Position numbers and translations under genes: made by a program | Shown here: piece after piece, positions 41,022-46,819 of the stretch | How positions within the stretch are numbered: the first letter of the stretch is position 1 | Layout of the letters: the number at the start of each line of letters is the position of its first letter | DNA from: Fructobacillus americanaquae | GTDB taxonomy: Bacteria; Bacillota; Bacilli; Lactobacillales; Lactobacillaceae | Assembly (NCBI RefSeq): GCF_024029775.1 | Contig: NZ_CP097122.1 | Span: 1,055,001 to 1,119,000 of the forward strand | Direction: 5' to 3' | Length of the DNA: 64,000 nt | Notes under the pieces: generated by a model | The model's database searches: none | What the model saw: the letters and a program-made list of their open reading frames with translations, nothing else | Told to the model about the DNA's origin: nothing

Positions 41022-41051
41022 TTGTTCTAATATTGAATTTCATGTTATACT
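41022..41051 (+). promoter_or_regulatory. Promoter of the TPP-riboswitch operon
   Basis: TATACT at 41046-41051 with TG one base upstream (extended -10), and a weak TTGTTC at 41022-41027. Confidence 0.65.
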
Positions 41052-41069
41052 GAAAAAAATTAATTAATT

Positions 41070-41157
41070 CGCAAGGGGAGCATCACGCTGAGATTAGACA
41101 GAAATGTCTTAGACCCTATGTACCTGATCTGGTTAATACCAGCGTAGGAATGCAACT
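41070..41157 (+). promoter_or_regulatory. TPP riboswitch (THI element)
   Basis: All conserved blocks are present in order: GGGGAGC, GCTGAGA, the variable P3a arm GACAGAAATGTC, ACCCT, then ACCTGATCTGGTTAATACCA and GCGTAGGAA. It should sense thiamin pyrophosphate. A terminator follows at 41200, so TPP is expected to stop transcription into the permease operon. Confidence 0.96.
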
Positions 41158-41199
41158 AATATTGATAACAAGGGGTCTTTTTTAGGACTTTTCGGTTGA

Positions 41200-41230
41200 G
41201 GTTGAATTCATCATGAATTCAACCTTTTTC
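41200..41230 (+). terminator. Riboswitch-controlled terminator
   Basis: GGTTGAATTCA pairs perfectly with TGAATTCAACC around TCA and is followed by five T, 43 bases after the aptamer. Confidence 0.88.
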
Positions 41231-41287
41231 TTTTGCTGGTAAAGACTGTTCAGGGTGGATTGATGAATTAAATTTTAGGAGAAAAAA

Positions 41288-42604
41288 ATGATTCAACAGA
41301 ACCATCAGCAGCAAGAAAGTTCCCCGGAAGAGATTCCATTGAGTACTAGTCAGACGATATTGATTAGTCTCCAACACATCTTTGTTTCCAATGTCTGGCT
41401 TGATCCGATTTTTGTTGCTTCAGCCGCGGGCCTCTCGTTAGCCTTGTCGACGAATTTGATTAGTGCCATTTTTTTGGCATCTGGTCTGGTAACGATTTTG
41501 CAGGCTTCAAAATTAGCACGGCTGCCGATTGTGCAAGGGCCTTCAGCGGCCTTTGATGCCCTCATGATTAGTGCTGGTAAAACTGGAGGTTTGCCAGCTG
41601 CCGGTGGTGCCGTCTTTCTCAGTGGCTTTATTGTTTTGCTGATGTCTTTATTTGGCTGGGTTCATCGCTTAGCTAAGAAATTGACACCTGCGATTAACGG
41701 GACCATTATTTTTTTGGTTGGCATTTCGCTTTCAAGTTTTACAATGTCAGAATTACTAGGAGGGACGCCTGGCACAAAAGGTTTTGCATCGCCAAACGTT
41801 CTTCTGGTGGCCGTTACAACCACTTTGATTGTCGTCTTAGGATCGTTGTTTGGCCGAGGTTACTGGCGCAAGTTTTCCTTTTTGCTGGCCCTTGTGGTTG
41901 GTAATCTTTTGGCGGCCAGCCTGGGGATGATTGACTTGTCAAGCGTGCAAAGTCAACCGTTTTTTGGCCTACCACGGTTGTTTCCTTATGGACTATTTCG
42001 TTTTAATTGGGCCATTTTTCTGACCTTCTTCATCGCTTATTTAGTGGCAGTGATTGAAGCTTTGGGCGTTTATGAAGCCTCTGCAGATGTTACCAAAGAA
42101 GAATTAAGTGCAAAGCGTATTAGTCGTGGAATTGCAGGTGAAGCGGGTGGCTCAATGCTTTCTTCTTTGATTGGCGGTTTTCCAACCACAGCTTTTGCCC
42201 AAAACTTAGGGTTCATGAAGTTGACGGGAGTGCATTCTCGTAAGCCCATTCTATTGGCCGGGGGATTACTAATTTTACTAGGATTTGTGCCCAAGTTTGC
42301 AGCAGTACTCGCTTTGACCCCAGCACCCGTTATCGGTGGGATGTTTTTGCCGGCAGCGGCAACCTTGTTAACGACGGGCTTTGCAACCCTGCAGAAGGCT
42401 GATAAAGGCGAAGCTACTCGGATGAGTATTGGTCTGTCTTTGTTGCTGGCCATTGCCCTGCCATCTTATGCAAAAGGATTTTCGGGTATTTATCAGTCGC
42501 TCTTTTCAAATAGTATTTTAGTCGGTGCTCTGTCGATTGTGACCCTGCATGTTCTATTAATTGTTGTACCAGGATTTTTTGGAGGGAAAAAGAACCATGA
42601 GTGA
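41288..42604 (+). CDS. NCS2-family nucleobase-type permease under TPP control
   Basis: A 438-residue transporter with about 12-14 membrane segments and the nucleobase-ascorbate (xanthine/uracil permease) fold. The QGPSAAFDALM stretch, the acidic VIEALGVYEASADVT (substrate-contacting Glu region, about 258-272) and GGFPTTAFAQNLGFMKLTGV (NAT signature region) are visible. Its relatives carry purines or pyrimidines. Control by a TPP riboswitch suggests that it imports a thiamin precursor, perhaps a pyrimidine related to HMP. That is inference. It overlaps the LuxE-like gene by 8 bases. Confidence 0.87.
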   Translation: MIQQNHQQQESSPEEIPLSTSQTILISLQHIFVSNVWLDPIFVASAAGLSLALSTNLISAIFLASGLVTILQASKLARLPIVQGPSAAFDALMISAGKTGGLPAAGGAVFLSGFIVLLMSLFGWVHRLAKKLTPAINGTIIFLVGISLSSFTMSELLGGTPGTKGFASPNVLLVAVTTTLIVVLGSLFGRGYWRKFSFLLALVVGNLLAASLGMIDLSSVQSQPFFGLPRLFPYGLFRFNWAIFLTFFIAYLVAVIEALGVYEASADVTKEELSAKRISRGIAGEAGGSMLSSLIGGFPTTAFAQNLGFMKLTGVHSRKPILLAGGLLILLGFVPKFAAVLALTPAPVIGGMFLPAAATLLTTGFATLQKADKGEATRMSIGLSLLLAIALPSYAKGFSGIYQSLFSNSILVGALSIVTLHVLLIVVPGFFGGKKNHE

Positions 42605-43718
42605 TTCGGTTGCTGCAATTCAAAAAGAAATTCTGAGTTTTATTGACCAACACCAAGTCATGGACGGCCACCATGAAAGTGATGAGGATTTCAATCAGTT
42701 GGCCCTCGATTTATTTCAATACCAATTTGACCATAATTTACCCTATAAAAAATATGCGCAACAACAACGAAAAAGTCCGCTAATGGTACATCGGTGGCAA
42801 GAAGTACCATTAATGCCGATTCAGGGATACAAGCAGTTAACGCTGTCGACAACGCCGATCACGGCGGGCGAAGCTGTTTTTATGTCAAGTGGGACAACGG
42901 ATAAGACCCACCGTAGCCATAGCTACCATCCGACTTTTGCTGTTTGGAATGAGTCAATGAAAGTATCTTTCAAGCAGTATGTCCTCCCGGACGTTGATCA
43001 AATCACTATTATTGGCCTATTTCCGGATGAAAAGCACCTTGACAATTCTTCTTTGGCTCATTATGTCAGTCGCGCCATTACCGAATTTGGTGACCAACAC
43101 AGCAGATCCTATGTCGATGCAGACGGGATTGATTATCAGGGAGTGGTCGCTGCTTTAACGGCGGCAGAAATTGATCACCGTCCCGTGATGCTGCTTGGCG
43201 CAAGTTTTTCCTACGTCCATTTTTTGGATTACCTACAAAAGCACCAGTTGGTCTTTCACCTGGCTGAAAAAAGTCGAATTTTTGATACCGGTGGTTTCAA
43301 GGGCCAATCGCGTCAAGTTAGCGAAGACCAGCTACTAGCTGATTTGGAAGCGGCCTTCGGTATTGGTCGTGACTATTATTTGAATATGTATGGCATGACG
43401 GAAATCAGTTCACAGTGCTATGACCAAAAATTGTGGCGGCTCAACCAGGGTTTGGACCTAATTTATAGTAAGCAAACACCAGCTTGGGTTCGCGTCAGGA
43501 TTTTAGATACCGATACCTTGGCGCCTGTTGCGCCCGGACAAAAAGGTGTCTTGGCCTATTATGACCTTTCGAACTGGAACTCATGCTTGGGCATCTTAAC
43601 GGAAGATTTAGCCGTACAGGATGACGTCGGCTTTACTTTGCTTGGTCGGATTGCTGGGGCGGAGTCAAAGGGGTGCTCAATTTCTGTTGATCAACTACTG
43701 CAAGCCAATCAAGCATGA
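42597..43718 (+). CDS. LuxE-like acyl-activating enzyme (acyl-protein synthetase family)
   Basis: A 373-residue member of the LuxE family, an adenylate-forming enzyme that activates a carboxylic acid with ATP and hands it on as a thioester. The FMSSGTTDKTHRSH segment (about 98-111) is the ATP/phosphate loop, and LNMYGMTEISSQCY the A5-like motif. The C-terminal GAESKGCSISVDQLL places the acyl-acceptor Cys at about 360, matching the acylated Cys near the LuxE end. The ATG at 42597 has GGAGGG before it. No luciferase genes are present, so it does not serve light emission. Its probable partner is the LuxC-like reductase directly downstream. Confidence 0.85.
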   Translation: MSDSVAAIQKEILSFIDQHQVMDGHHESDEDFNQLALDLFQYQFDHNLPYKKYAQQQRKSPLMVHRWQEVPLMPIQGYKQLTLSTTPITAGEAVFMSSGTTDKTHRSHSYHPTFAVWNESMKVSFKQYVLPDVDQITIIGLFPDEKHLDNSSLAHYVSRAITEFGDQHSRSYVDADGIDYQGVVAALTAAEIDHRPVMLLGASFSYVHFLDYLQKHQLVFHLAEKSRIFDTGGFKGQSRQVSEDQLLADLEAAFGIGRDYYLNMYGMTEISSQCYDQKLWRLNQGLDLIYSKQTPAWVRVRILDTDTLAPVAPGQKGVLAYYDLSNWNSCLGILTEDLAVQDDVGFTLLGRIAGAESKGCSISVDQLLQANQA

Positions 43719-43729
43719 AAGAGGATACA

Positions 43730-45205
43730 ATGGCTAAAGAAGGAGAGACAACCAAAATCAACTTGTTTCTTTCGCCAAATGAGAGTCAATTTAATCGATT
43801 GAAAACCTGGTCGATTTCGGTGGGTAAGCAACGCTATGATTTACAGTATCCTGATTTGACAGAACAAGAAGTCAAAGAAACCATCAAGACGTTGAAAGAC
43901 CATCAGCAGGCTTTTTTAAGTCAACTTTCGGTCGAAGAAATCATTCTGATGATTAGTACTGCCGCCGAAAAATGGATGGACCCGGAGTACAATGAGCGCC
44001 AGTTGGCACTAAAGTTATTACCGATTATCACGGGATACAGTGAGGAAACGATTAACTTGGAAATTAGGCGGTATATGCGCCTGTTTCGTGCCAAAGAGTT
44101 ACGTCGCTTTTTAAATACGGAATTGGCAAACCCAGCAATTTTGGATGCTTTTCAGCCACAAGCATCCGGAAGCCTAACCAAGGCTTATGGCCCCCAAACA
44201 AGCTTTCACGTTTTTTCCGGTAATATTCCTGGTCTCCAGGTTTGGTCGCTCGTAATGACACTGTTGGTAAAATCAGCTAGATTTGGGAAAACTTCCTTTG
44301 CTGAGCCGCTTTTCCCGGTGCTCTTTGGCCAAAGTTTATTAGCAGTGGAACCCAGATTGGCGGGTTGCTTGGCAATCTTTCCTTGGAAAGGTGGTAGCAA
44401 GAAGTCAGTTGAGAAAGCGGCTGCGGCTGGGACAGAGGCTACGATTGCCTATGGCTCGGATCAATCGGTGAAGAATGTTCAGACATTGGTGCCAGCTGGC
44501 CATTTATTTTTGCATTTTGGCTATAAAATCAGTTTTGCTCTGGTTGGTCAAGAGGCGTTGGCGACCGATCGGTATCAAGGTACCGTTAATCGGGCGGGTG
44601 CGGACGTAGCGATTTATGACCAGCAAAGCTGCCTGTCGCCGCAGTGTATTTTCGTTGAACGCGGTGGTTCTCTGTCACCAAAGGACTTTGCTAGTGCGTT
44701 AGCAGCTGATTTGGCAAGCAGACAACAACGGTGGCCTCGGGCGGACCTGGATGACCAACAAGCCACAGCCATTAACCGCTTAAGGGCACAATTTCAATTG
44801 GAAGCAATCGCTGATCACAGCTTGACAGTCTATTCTAGTCCGCAAAAGACAGATTGGACCGTTGTTTACCATGATCAACCCATCTTCATCAGTTCGCCAT
44901 TAAATCGGTTTGTGCATGTGGTGGCCGTTGATAATTTACTGACTGTGCCGATTTACTTAAGACCCTACCAGCAGTACTTACAAACTGCCGGTATCGCTGT
45001 CGCACCAAAACGTCTGTTACCAATCACGGATACTTTGGGCCAAGCGGGTTTGTGCCGGATTACCGCCTTAGGGGAGATGACTCGGGCACGACCTGGTTGG
45101 CACCATGATGGTCGTTTTAATATATTAGATTTGTTGCGGTTTACAGATATTGAGCCAAGTGCAGAAAGTCTGGCTGAACACTTAGATACAGATGTGGAGT
45201 GGTAA
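43730..45205 (+). CDS. LuxC-like acyl reductase
   Basis: A 491-residue member of the LuxC family, aldehyde-dehydrogenase-fold enzymes that reduce an activated acyl group to the aldehyde with NAD(P)H. FHVFSGNIPGLQVWSL (about 155-170) matches the family cofactor region, and the catalytic Cys is Cys301 in DQQSCLSPQCIFVE. I chose the ATG at 43730, with AAAGAGGA upstream, over one 15 bases earlier that overlaps the luxE-like stop. With the LuxE-like protein it should reduce an acid to an aldehyde. The substrate is unknown; the TPP riboswitch points to thiamin metabolism. Confidence 0.85.
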   Translation: MAKEGETTKINLFLSPNESQFNRLKTWSISVGKQRYDLQYPDLTEQEVKETIKTLKDHQQAFLSQLSVEEIILMISTAAEKWMDPEYNERQLALKLLPIITGYSEETINLEIRRYMRLFRAKELRRFLNTELANPAILDAFQPQASGSLTKAYGPQTSFHVFSGNIPGLQVWSLVMTLLVKSARFGKTSFAEPLFPVLFGQSLLAVEPRLAGCLAIFPWKGGSKKSVEKAAAAGTEATIAYGSDQSVKNVQTLVPAGHLFLHFGYKISFALVGQEALATDRYQGTVNRAGADVAIYDQQSCLSPQCIFVERGGSLSPKDFASALAADLASRQQRWPRADLDDQQATAINRLRAQFQLEAIADHSLTVYSSPQKTDWTVVYHDQPIFISSPLNRFVHVVAVDNLLTVPIYLRPYQQYLQTAGIAVAPKRLLPITDTLGQAGLCRITALGEMTRARPGWHHDGRFNILDLLRFTDIEPSAESLAEHLDTDVEW

Positions 45206-45207
45206 AG

Positions 45208-45975
45208 ATGTTATTAGAAAATCAAGTCGCACTGGTGACTGGGGCTAGCCGGGGCATTGGTGCTGCCGTTGCTAAAAAATTTGCTGCTGAGGGAGCACTT
45301 GTTATCGTCAATTTCTTGAAAAATCAGGAAAAAGCGGATGCAGTTGTGCAAGAAATCCAGACAGCCGGAGGACAAGCGGTCGCGATGGCTGCCAATGTTT
45401 GTGATGACCAGGCAGTTCAAGATATGATGACGATGATTGCTGATAATTTTGCAGGTTTGGATATTGTTGTTAATAATGCCCTAAGACACTACAGTTTTAA
45501 TCCAAAAAACCGTCATCAGGTGGAATCGATGCCTTGGAGTGACTATCAGGAACAATTTGAGGGGGCAGTCAAGGCAGCTTACAATGTCAACCGGGCTGCC
45601 CTCCCTTTGTTAAAGGCGAACCAGGACGGTCGAATTATTCAGATGATCAGTAACCTTGTTCAACAGCCAATGGTTCCTTACCACGATTATATTACTGCGA
45701 AGGCTGCTTTATTAGGCTATTCGCGGGCATTAGCCAAAGATCTTGGGCCATTTGGTATCCGCGTGAACACAATTGCACCTGGGCTGACTTATCCGACCGA
45801 TTCGAGCAGTGCTACTGGTAATGACGTGCGTGAGCGGTTGTTGGCTCTCTCGGCAACGAAATGGTTAACCATTCCAGAAGATGTGGCTGGAACAGCTCTG
45901 TATCTAGCTTCAAGATTATCCAATAACGTGACGGGTCAGTGCATTACAGTTGATGGTGGTCTAACCATGAATTAA
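45208..45975 (+). CDS. Short-chain dehydrogenase/reductase (FabG-like)
   Basis: A 255-residue classical SDR. GASRGIGAAVAKKF (about 12-25) binds the dinucleotide, NNALRH is the NNAG variant, the catalytic Ser lies in QMISNLVQ, and Tyr/Lys are in YITAKAALLGYSRALA. The end NNVTGQCITVDGGLTMN is typical. It follows the LuxC-like gene directly. As the last enzyme of the operon it is the natural candidate to reduce the LuxC-made aldehyde to an alcohol. A role in fatty acid synthesis is less likely, since no fab genes are near. Confidence 0.85.
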   Translation: MLLENQVALVTGASRGIGAAVAKKFAAEGALVIVNFLKNQEKADAVVQEIQTAGGQAVAMAANVCDDQAVQDMMTMIADNFAGLDIVVNNALRHYSFNPKNRHQVESMPWSDYQEQFEGAVKAAYNVNRAALPLLKANQDGRIIQMISNLVQQPMVPYHDYITAKAALLGYSRALAKDLGPFGIRVNTIAPGLTYPTDSSSATGNDVRERLLALSATKWLTIPEDVAGTALYLASRLSNNVTGQCITVDGGLTMN

Positions 45976-46078: not shown

Positions 46079-46819
46079 TTAAAAGAACAAACGAATACCA
46101 AAGTACATAATGACAAAGCCAATGAAGGGCGATAAGAACTTGTTAATCTTTTTTGGATCAAATTGTTTTAGAACAAGGGGTGTCAGAATTGAACCCGCCA
46201 CACCACCAATCATCAGATAAAGGCCAGCTGTCCAAGAAATAGGACCGCCACTTAGTAAGTGGCTGATGAGCCCGACGACAGCTAAAACCCACAGAACGTA
46301 GGTTGTGGTACCAGCAGCCTTGACTGCAGGCACGTTCATAATCGAAAGGCCCGCTACGGTGGCCGAGCCACCTGATAGGCCGCCAAAACCAACCATCAGG
46401 CCGGAAATTAGTCCAAAGACTGGTGCGACTTTACTATTCTCATTGGACTTTGCGTTCTCTTTTTTCTTACGGAAATTTTTGATGACCACAATCAAGCCCA
46501 TCCCAGTCAACAAGATTCCGACGCCGAGATTGTAAACAGTGACGGGAATGAACCGGGAGACGGCGGTACCGATGATAATGCCTGGAATACCGGCTATAAT
46601 TAATCGATTTCCAAGTTTACTTTCGATATTCTTTAACCGCCATTGTGTTATCATGCCTGAAAAAAGGGCGAAGACGGCAATTAAGAGCGAAGTTGGGACA
46701 GCGACGACAGTCGACATCCCTAAAGTCGATGTTAGCACTCCAAGGTAAAAAGTGGCACCCCCACCACCAATTAAGGTAACAAAGCAGCCAATTAGGAAAC
46801 CATAGAAAATTGCAATCAT
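46079..46819 (-). CDS. TauE/SafE family exporter
   Basis: A 246-residue membrane protein with about eight helices. The two TauE/SafE repeats are recognisable, one with GGGGATFYLGVL and one with GLMVGFGGLSGGSATVAGL. Family members export sulfite, sulfoacetate or other organic anions. The substrate here is unknown. I chose the ATG at 46819; the frame is open 6 codons further to a TTG without a ribosome-binding site. A minus-strand terminator-like hairpin about 200 bases upstream may be part of a leader. Confidence 0.82.
   Translation of the reverse strand: MIAIFYGFLIGCFVTLIGGGGATFYLGVLTSTLGMSTVVAVPTSLLIAVFALFSGMITQWRLKNIESKLGNRLIIAGIPGIIIGTAVSRFIPVTVYNLGVGILLTGMGLIVVIKNFRKKKENAKSNENSKVAPVFGLISGLMVGFGGLSGGSATVAGLSIMNVPAVKAAGTTTYVLWVLAVVGLISHLLSGGPISWTAGLYLMIGGVAGSILTPLVLKQFDPKKINKFLSPFIGFVIMYFGIRLFF

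Follow-up and report, generated by a model that had tools for sequence, protein, structure and literature searches.

In the 64,000-nucleotide window analyzed here (positions 1,055,001 to 1,119,000 of the forward strand of Fructobacillus americanaquae contig NZ_CP097122.1), a thiamin pyrophosphate (TPP) riboswitch is followed by four intact and tightly packed genes encoding an NCS2-family permease, a LuxE-family acid-activating enzyme, a LuxC-family acyl-thioester reductase, and a short-chain dehydrogenase/reductase (SDR; Table 1). We propose that this operon is a TPP-repressed system for salvage of the pyrimidine half of thiamin, which imports 4-amino-2-methylpyrimidine-5-carboxylate and reduces it to 4-amino-5-hydroxymethyl-2-methylpyrimidine (HMP), a reading that we consider probable (roughly 0.72). 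The leader belongs to RF00059, with a covariance-model score above the gathering score and a terminator-like hairpin before the first gene, and is predicted to bind TPP; the region from 41064 to 41240 has a predicted folding energy of -54.6 kcal/mol (z = -4.0 against shuffled sequences). The permease and LuxE genes overlap by 8 bases, and LuxC and the SDR gene are 2 bases apart. If LuxC begins at its first ATG, it shares 4 bases with LuxE; if it begins at the second (43730), which yields a 491-aa protein and whose ribosome-binding site looks the better one by eye, the two genes lie 11 bases apart. An earlier note, made from these letters alone, had described a complete TPP aptamer and terminator ahead of the four genes, which the Rfam and Pfam matches bear out; its near-zero gene spacing also holds, whereas the 8-base gap that it reported is an 8-base overlap. 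The catalytic residues that it named are likewise in place, with the LuxE acyl-accepting cysteine at about 360 being Cys360 and the SDR YxxxK motif being Tyr161 and Lys165; the LuxC cysteine is Cys301, as the note had it, if translation starts at the second ATG, and Cys306 in the longer reading.

Table 1. Features of the TPP riboswitch operon of F. americanaquae (window coordinates)
Feature	Start	End	Strand	Evidence
TPP riboswitch aptamer	41064	41167	+	Rfam RF00059, 73.5 bits vs gathering 54.3, E 1.4e-12, full length
Terminator-like hairpin, riboswitch expression platform	41198	41226	+	13-pair stem, loop 3, T-rich tail
NCS2-family permease, 438 aa; predicted pyrimidine-acid importer	41288	42604	+	PF00860, 1.1e-76
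LuxE-family acid-activating enzyme, 373 aa, acyl-accepting Cys360	42597	43718	+	PF04443, 4e-23
LuxC-family acyl-thioester reductase, 496 aa from first ATG, catalytic Cys306/301	43715	45205	+	PF05893, 6.4e-104
SDR, 255 aa, Tyr161-x3-Lys165; predicted aldehyde reductase giving HMP	45208	45975	+	PF13561, 9.7e-50
Bidirectional terminator-like hairpin, operon end	46024	46071	.	20-pair stem, T-rich tails on both strands

Public records annotate genes of this kind as acyl-CoA synthetase, long-chain fatty acid--CoA ligase, or acyl-CoA reductase and add a bioluminescence term. Such labels, which are also found on plasmid copies (acyl-CoA reductase, long-chain fatty acid--CoA ligase, and the Gene Ontology term for bioluminescence), and the names of families PF04443 and PF05893 would fit production of fatty aldehydes or alcohols by LuxE, LuxC, and the SDR, with the riboswitch being incidental. 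We regard this as very improbable. Both proteins belong to their families (LuxE has PF04443 and a C-terminal acyl cysteine, and LuxC has PF05893 and a catalytic cysteine), but LuxE scores 75 bits against the cut-off of 550 of NF052244 (long-chain-fatty-acid--protein ligase equivalog) and LuxC 112.6 bits against the cut-off of 750 of NF052251 (long-chain-fatty-acyl-CoA reductase equivalog). The recurrence of the riboswitch across several phyla and the linkage of ThiD, ThiE, ThiG, ThiM, and a THI5-like binding protein to part of the loci (see below) also argue against a fatty acid role. No luciferase is present by Pfam among the four operon genes and the convergent neighbor, the genome as a whole not having been searched with luciferase profiles. 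This neighbor is a TauE/SafE-family exporter gene (46079-46819, minus strand), and the hairpin at the operon end is common to both.

The only solved sequence relatives of the operon's LuxE and LuxC at E 0.01 are the LuxC and LuxE chains of 7xc6, the fatty acid reductase of luminous bacteria. The predicted LuxE model (predicted local distance difference test [pLDDT] score of 88, falling to 53-57 in the Cys region) has an acyl-ligase (ANL) fold and is nearest to small-acid and aryl-acid ligases. Its top match (TM-score 0.59) is ClxA in complex with the adenylate of an aminohydroxybenzoic acid, and the best 50 structure matches do not include 7xc6. This agrees weakly with the proposed substrate, the fold being common to the whole superfamily. 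The permease scores above the cut-off of NCBIfam NF037981 (purine/pyrimidine permease; 99.1 versus 40 bits) and below those of the superfamily model TIGR00801 (234.6 versus 291.8) and of xanthine permease PbuX (TIGR03173; 328.6 versus 414 bits), and its nearest solved relative by sequence is uracil permease.

The operon has a patchy distribution in the Lactobacillaceae, with a LuxC search of 301 genomes revealing nine carriers in 6 of 40 genera; within the window's genus, LuxC is present in 2 of 13 genomes. All eight Lactobacillaceae relatives (six genera) keep the four genes in an unchanged order downstream of one TPP riboswitch or two, and in five of them there are two in tandem, an arrangement that is known but uncommon. 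Tandem pairs precede the operon at loci L018-L022, L029-L031, L033, L035, L043, and L044. The window LuxC is closer to those of three other genera (52-53%) than to that of its genus-mate (47%), which suggests that the operon has moved by horizontal transfer. It is also carried on plasmids, with 27 plasmid records containing it at E 1e-40, among them plasmids of Lactiplantibacillus plantarum (10.3 kb), Levilactobacillus brevis (21 kb, mobilizable), and Pantoea dispersa. These three (L107, NZ_CP035118.1; L108, NZ_CP050546.1; and L109, NZ_CP146255.1) each have a TPP riboswitch; the 10.3-kb plasmid also encodes a toxin-antitoxin pair and an integrase. A LuxC scan of viral contigs gave five stretches with the pattern, none of which was confirmed, and E. 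coli genomes contain no match to the Enterobacter cancerogenus copy.

Named genomes were scanned with a LuxE alignment, yielding 397 relatives, and all counts out of 80 refer to the best 80 loci of these. The alignments used contain eight of the nine Lactobacillaceae LuxE proteins (A1; L018 was omitted, its LuxE match being split over two frames), 40 LuxE proteins (A4), and 10 binding proteins (A5). The 80 loci span the Bacillota, Bifidobacterium, alpha-, beta-, and gammaproteobacteria, and NC10, and in 76 of them a TPP riboswitch lies upstream in the same orientation; three of the misses (L045, L069, and L087) are cut by contig ends. Twelve riboswitch-bearing loci were tested against Rfam, of which five pass the gathering score and seven match RF00059 below it (33.6-50.8 bits) at the same positions; the other 64 calls rest on a model (R1) built partly from relatives within the same set, and five of these loci are apparently genomes whose riboswitches Rfam confirmed in the Lactobacillaceae set. 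With 8/8 Lactobacillaceae relatives and 76/80 wider loci, the association of operon and riboswitch is far beyond chance, and the search for the same gene set behind TPP riboswitches elsewhere, which the earlier note had suggested as a check, gives a clear positive.

The enzymatic core of the operon is strongly conserved, and its transporter varies. LuxE and LuxC occur together in all 80 loci, with LuxE Cys360 and LuxC Cys306 kept in 80/80, and SDR Tyr161 and Lys165 are kept in 73/73. An SDR follows LuxC in 73 loci, and six of the seven without one are cut by contig ends; in the seventh (L072, from NC10), a zinc alcohol dehydrogenase gene lies between the riboswitch and LuxE, and this replacement of the SDR fits an aldehyde/alcohol step. 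A zinc alcohol dehydrogenase is also encoded by the first gene behind the TPP riboswitch of L084 (NC10), a locus that is cut inside LuxC. The LuxE copies of L018, L055, and G312/L039 look interrupted. An NCS2 permease gene precedes LuxE in 39 loci, and an ABC transporter binding protein is encoded in 30; the 11 loci with neither comprise five contigs ending in or soon after LuxC, five three-gene clusters of enterobacteria, and L029, where ThiW takes their place. The binding protein tested (L089) matches PF09084 (NMT1/THI5), and its predicted model (pLDDT 88) is nearest to thiamin-bound 4nmy, formylaminopyrimidine (FAMP)-binding 3ix1, uncharacterized 3qsl, and Thi5, followed by the sulfonate-binding protein SsuA.

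The window genome (1.41 Mb, a single contig, 98% complete) encodes ThiD and ThiE, as expected for HMP salvage, and also ThiM and TPK by profile, with thiD, thiE, and thiM clustered at C1:229973-232171, and has no ThiC; there is no ThiG at E 1e-90, two matches (2.1e-8 and 3.6e-6) that pass Pfam's permissive cut-off covering only 60 and 95 of 247 positions. Four further TPP aptamers are present (one 0.1 bit below the gathering score), and by eye the genes behind them are thiW, tenA, an ECF HMP-type transporter gene, and thiT. The frames of tenA (L103:3695-4354, minus strand) and thiW (L104:1168-1673, plus strand) each look, by eye, to be broken by a frame change, whereas the genes of the LuxE operon are all intact. 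Downstream of thiW and a gene of the HAD type, L104:2376-2675 encodes a 99-aa protein resembling, by eye, an MTH1187/YkoF-type thiamin-binding protein.

Which half of thiamin the operon supplies was addressed by profiling thiamin genes in 58 operon genomes, 49 from the best 80 loci and the nine from the Lactobacillaceae; the other 31 loci are 24 contigs of metagenome-assembled genomes (MAGs), L082, L086, and the apparent duplicates L025, L026, L033, L035, and L043. ThiE and ThiD both match in 58/58 (53 and 57 above curated cut-offs, respectively), so that the co-occurrence with thiD and thiE that the earlier note had suggested examining is complete in this set. ThiM is found in 50/58; of the eight lacking it, four have no match and four have a 19.7-23.5-bit match to one end only. 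Individual loci are more informative. In Paenibacillus nasutitermitis (L052), one TPP riboswitch is followed by genes for a TenI-like protein, ThiO, ThiS (by eye), ThiG, and ThiF, and the run continues with NCS2, LuxE, LuxC, SDR, ThiD, and ThiE, and by profile this genome has neither ThiC nor ThiM. With thiazole synthesis genes present and ThiM and ThiC absent, the cell could make its own thiazole, free thiazole would be unusable, and the pyrimidine would be the missing half. The order ThiF-NCS2-LuxE-LuxC-SDR-ThiD-ThiE recurs on a cut MAG contig (L045). At two Limnohabitans loci (L065 and L067), ThiD (on the opposite strand), ThiO, ThiG, and ThiE come after the module, and no ThiC, ThiM, or TPK is found in these genomes by profile; the completeness of the 49 profiled genomes is not given, and the absences in L052, L065, and L067 are to be read accordingly. 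In betaproteobacterial loci L076, L093, and L100, the order is TPP-ThiD-LuxE-LuxC-ABC-SDR, with ThiD as the first gene, directly before LuxE. From the ThiD-first loci, L052, Limnohabitans, and the binding protein, we take the most likely product to be HMP, the pyrimidine.

Several observations weigh against this reading. ThiM adjoins the module at five of the 80 loci (L037, L041, L049, L054, and L057), four of which have ThiD and ThiE too, and ThiW is present at four (L029, L030, L031, and L044) and is the sole transporter found in the L029 cluster. In the Niallia family, genomes with the operon have ThiC more often (14/22) than those without it (42/129), so that the module is not a general replacement for ThiC; ThiC is present in 38/58 profiled operon genomes. 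Locus L102 has no TPP riboswitch at the sensitivity used and is a true miss, and five enterobacterial clusters (L075, L082, L083, L085, and L101) contain no NCS2 or ABC transporter. The binding protein is nearest to SsuA in NCBIfam, although below its cut-off, and a profile search of solved chains with it places the uncharacterized 3qsl first.

The linkage to ThiM and ThiW, with the presence of ThiM in most operon genomes, would fit salvage of the other half of thiamin, in which 4-methylthiazole-5-acetate, a thiamin breakdown acid, is imported and reduced to hydroxyethylthiazole for phosphorylation by ThiM. ThiW, recognized here by profile match, is a predicted thiazole transporter according to the available part of PMC5627462. 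We nonetheless find thiazole salvage unlikely as the general role, given the eight operon genomes in which ThiM is missing, the L052 and L065/L067 modules that lie beside thiazole synthesis genes in genomes without ThiM, where another supply of thiazole would bring little benefit, the position of ThiD and not ThiM at the head of L076, L093, and L100, and the grouping of the binding protein with NMT1/THI5. Given the ThiM and ThiW linkage, thiazole use is conceivable at some loci.

A different possibility is that whole oxidized thiamin is repaired, with thiamin acetic acid, a known oxidation product, being reduced back to thiamin. Thiamin-bound 4nmy is the nearest structure to the binding-protein model and TPK is present in most profiled genomes, but TPK has no match in 15/58 and only a partial match in three more, such that direct pyrophosphorylation would not be available there (a ThiK-type kinase was not searched for). 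Moreover, free thiamin would need no linked ThiD, ThiE, or ThiG, and NCS2 carriers are nucleobase-type transporters. This makes thiamin repair improbable, and because of the ThiM-less, TPK-less, and ThiC-less operon genomes we rank the thiazole and whole-thiamin readings second and third behind pyrimidine salvage.

Co-occurrence counts were also considered as evidence for replacement of ThiC: 14/58 genomes have ThiG and lack ThiC, versus 0/58 with the reverse. ThiG was counted at E 1e-90 or better only, since Pfam's own cut-off also passes short fragments. This line was dropped, as base rates explain the asymmetry; ThiC is missing in 300/301 Lactobacillaceae genomes, and ThiG is present in 4/9 Lactobacillaceae operon genomes versus 30/292 others. 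Because of these controls, the ThiC and ThiG counts are not used as evidence, and the argument relies on the logic of single genomes. The only one of the 301 Lactobacillaceae genomes with ThiC (G209) also carries the operon.

Comparative genomics thus supports the earlier note's proposal that, under TPP control, a carboxylate of the pyrimidine or thiazole is imported and reduced to its alcohol, with the pyrimidine favored by the ThiE and ThiD counts and the genomes lacking ThiM. We infer the substrate, direction, and activities of pyrimidine salvage from observed gene content and order, the riboswitch, the catalytic residues, and the linkage to thi genes. Riboswitches of this family let transcription pass the terminator when TPP is low, and low TPP is expected to permit read-through here. 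The NCS2 permease would import 4-amino-2-methylpyrimidine-5-carboxylate, putatively an oxidized thiamin breakdown product, a role that an ABC transporter with an NMT1/THI5-type binding protein may fill in other bacteria. In luminous bacteria, LuxE makes an acyl-adenylate and then a cysteine thioester, and LuxC reduces the acyl group to an aldehyde. By the chemistry of these families, the operon's LuxE would use ATP to adenylate the carboxylate and hold the acyl group as a Cys360 thioester, LuxC would take it onto Cys306 (Cys301) and form the aldehyde at the expense of NAD(P)H, and the SDR (or the zinc alcohol dehydrogenase in L072) would convert the aldehyde to the alcohol HMP. ThiD would phosphorylate HMP, and ThiE would join it to the thiazole. 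The proposed substrate is reported to be a thiamin metabolite in rat urine (Neal and Pearson 1964, as cited in the available part of PMC7780320).

The operon resembles several known systems without matching any of them. With the LuxE-LuxC fatty acid reductase of luminous bacteria (7xc6) it shares the Pfam families, the adjacency of the genes, the acyl cysteine of LuxE, and the catalytic cysteine of LuxC; it differs in lying far below the long-chain cut-offs, in its TPP control and linkage to thiamin genes, and in having an SDR gene follow instead of luciferase. Carboxylic acid reductases activate an acid with ATP and then reduce it to the aldehyde. Such enzymes, together with PaaK-type aryl-acid ligases, resemble the operon in ATP-driven acid activation, and the nearest relatives of the LuxE model are ANL ligases, several with aryl acids; here, however, the functions are split between LuxE and LuxC with a predicted cysteine thioester, and no CoA or phosphopantetheine arm is seen. 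CytX is an NCS1 member. Nucleobase carriers have precedent in thiamin metabolism, since the available part of PMC5874261 places CytX in clusters with thiamin genes and describes PLUTO, also an NCS1 carrier, as transporting HMP, whereas the carrier here is of the NCS2 family and tied to acid-reducing enzymes. TenA/YlmB/ThiXYZ (Jenkins 2007, as cited in the available part of PMC5627462) is likewise a TPP-controlled system, which salvages base-degraded thiamin by recovering the pyrimidine half as HMP, and has an NMT1/THI5-family ABC transporter like that of 30/80 loci here. As far as that source describes them, TenA and YlmB act on an amino or formylamino group, whereas the operon would activate and reduce a carboxylate, and most Bacillota loci, as well as the Bifidobacterium loci examined, have an NCS2 permease as the transporter.

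The note's statement that no thiamin route using LuxC and LuxE has been described agrees with the titles and abstracts of the matches listed from the open PubMed Central (PMC) literature, none of which joins LuxE, LuxC, or acyl-CoA reductase with thiamin metabolism; the two that contain LuxE, LuxC, and thiamin and looked closest, one a transcriptome study of a cyanobacterium that involves a lux reporter and the other a study of the Vibrio harveyi proteome, are unrelated by the passages concerned. OarX, a putative TPP-regulated oxidoreductase reportedly listed in Rodionov et al. 2002 (J Biol Chem), could be this SDR; no paper on oarX and thiamin was found in the open PMC literature. Salvage of the thiamin pyrimidine is a known process; new in it would be the putative pyrimidine-acid entry compound, and a LuxE/LuxC pair is not described in such a role in the matches listed.

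A further suggestion, which we consider unlikely, is that in the ThiC-less operon genomes of Paenibacillus nasutitermitis and Limnohabitans the module, beyond salvage, is the regular source of pyrimidine, fed by a pyrimidine acid made otherwise by the cell or its community; if true, this would constitute a ThiC-independent HMP supply carried between phyla and on small plasmids. Oxidized thiamin breakdown acids are usually regarded as waste, and if the proposal is correct, many bacteria, with members of the lactic acid bacteria, bifidobacteria, bacilli, and freshwater and plant-associated Proteobacteria among them, could recover such acids, which would alter predictions of vitamin B1 need and exchange in food, gut, and water. 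It would also give a function to widespread genes now labeled as fatty acid or bioluminescence genes, with the LuxE/LuxC pair being active in vitamin metabolism.

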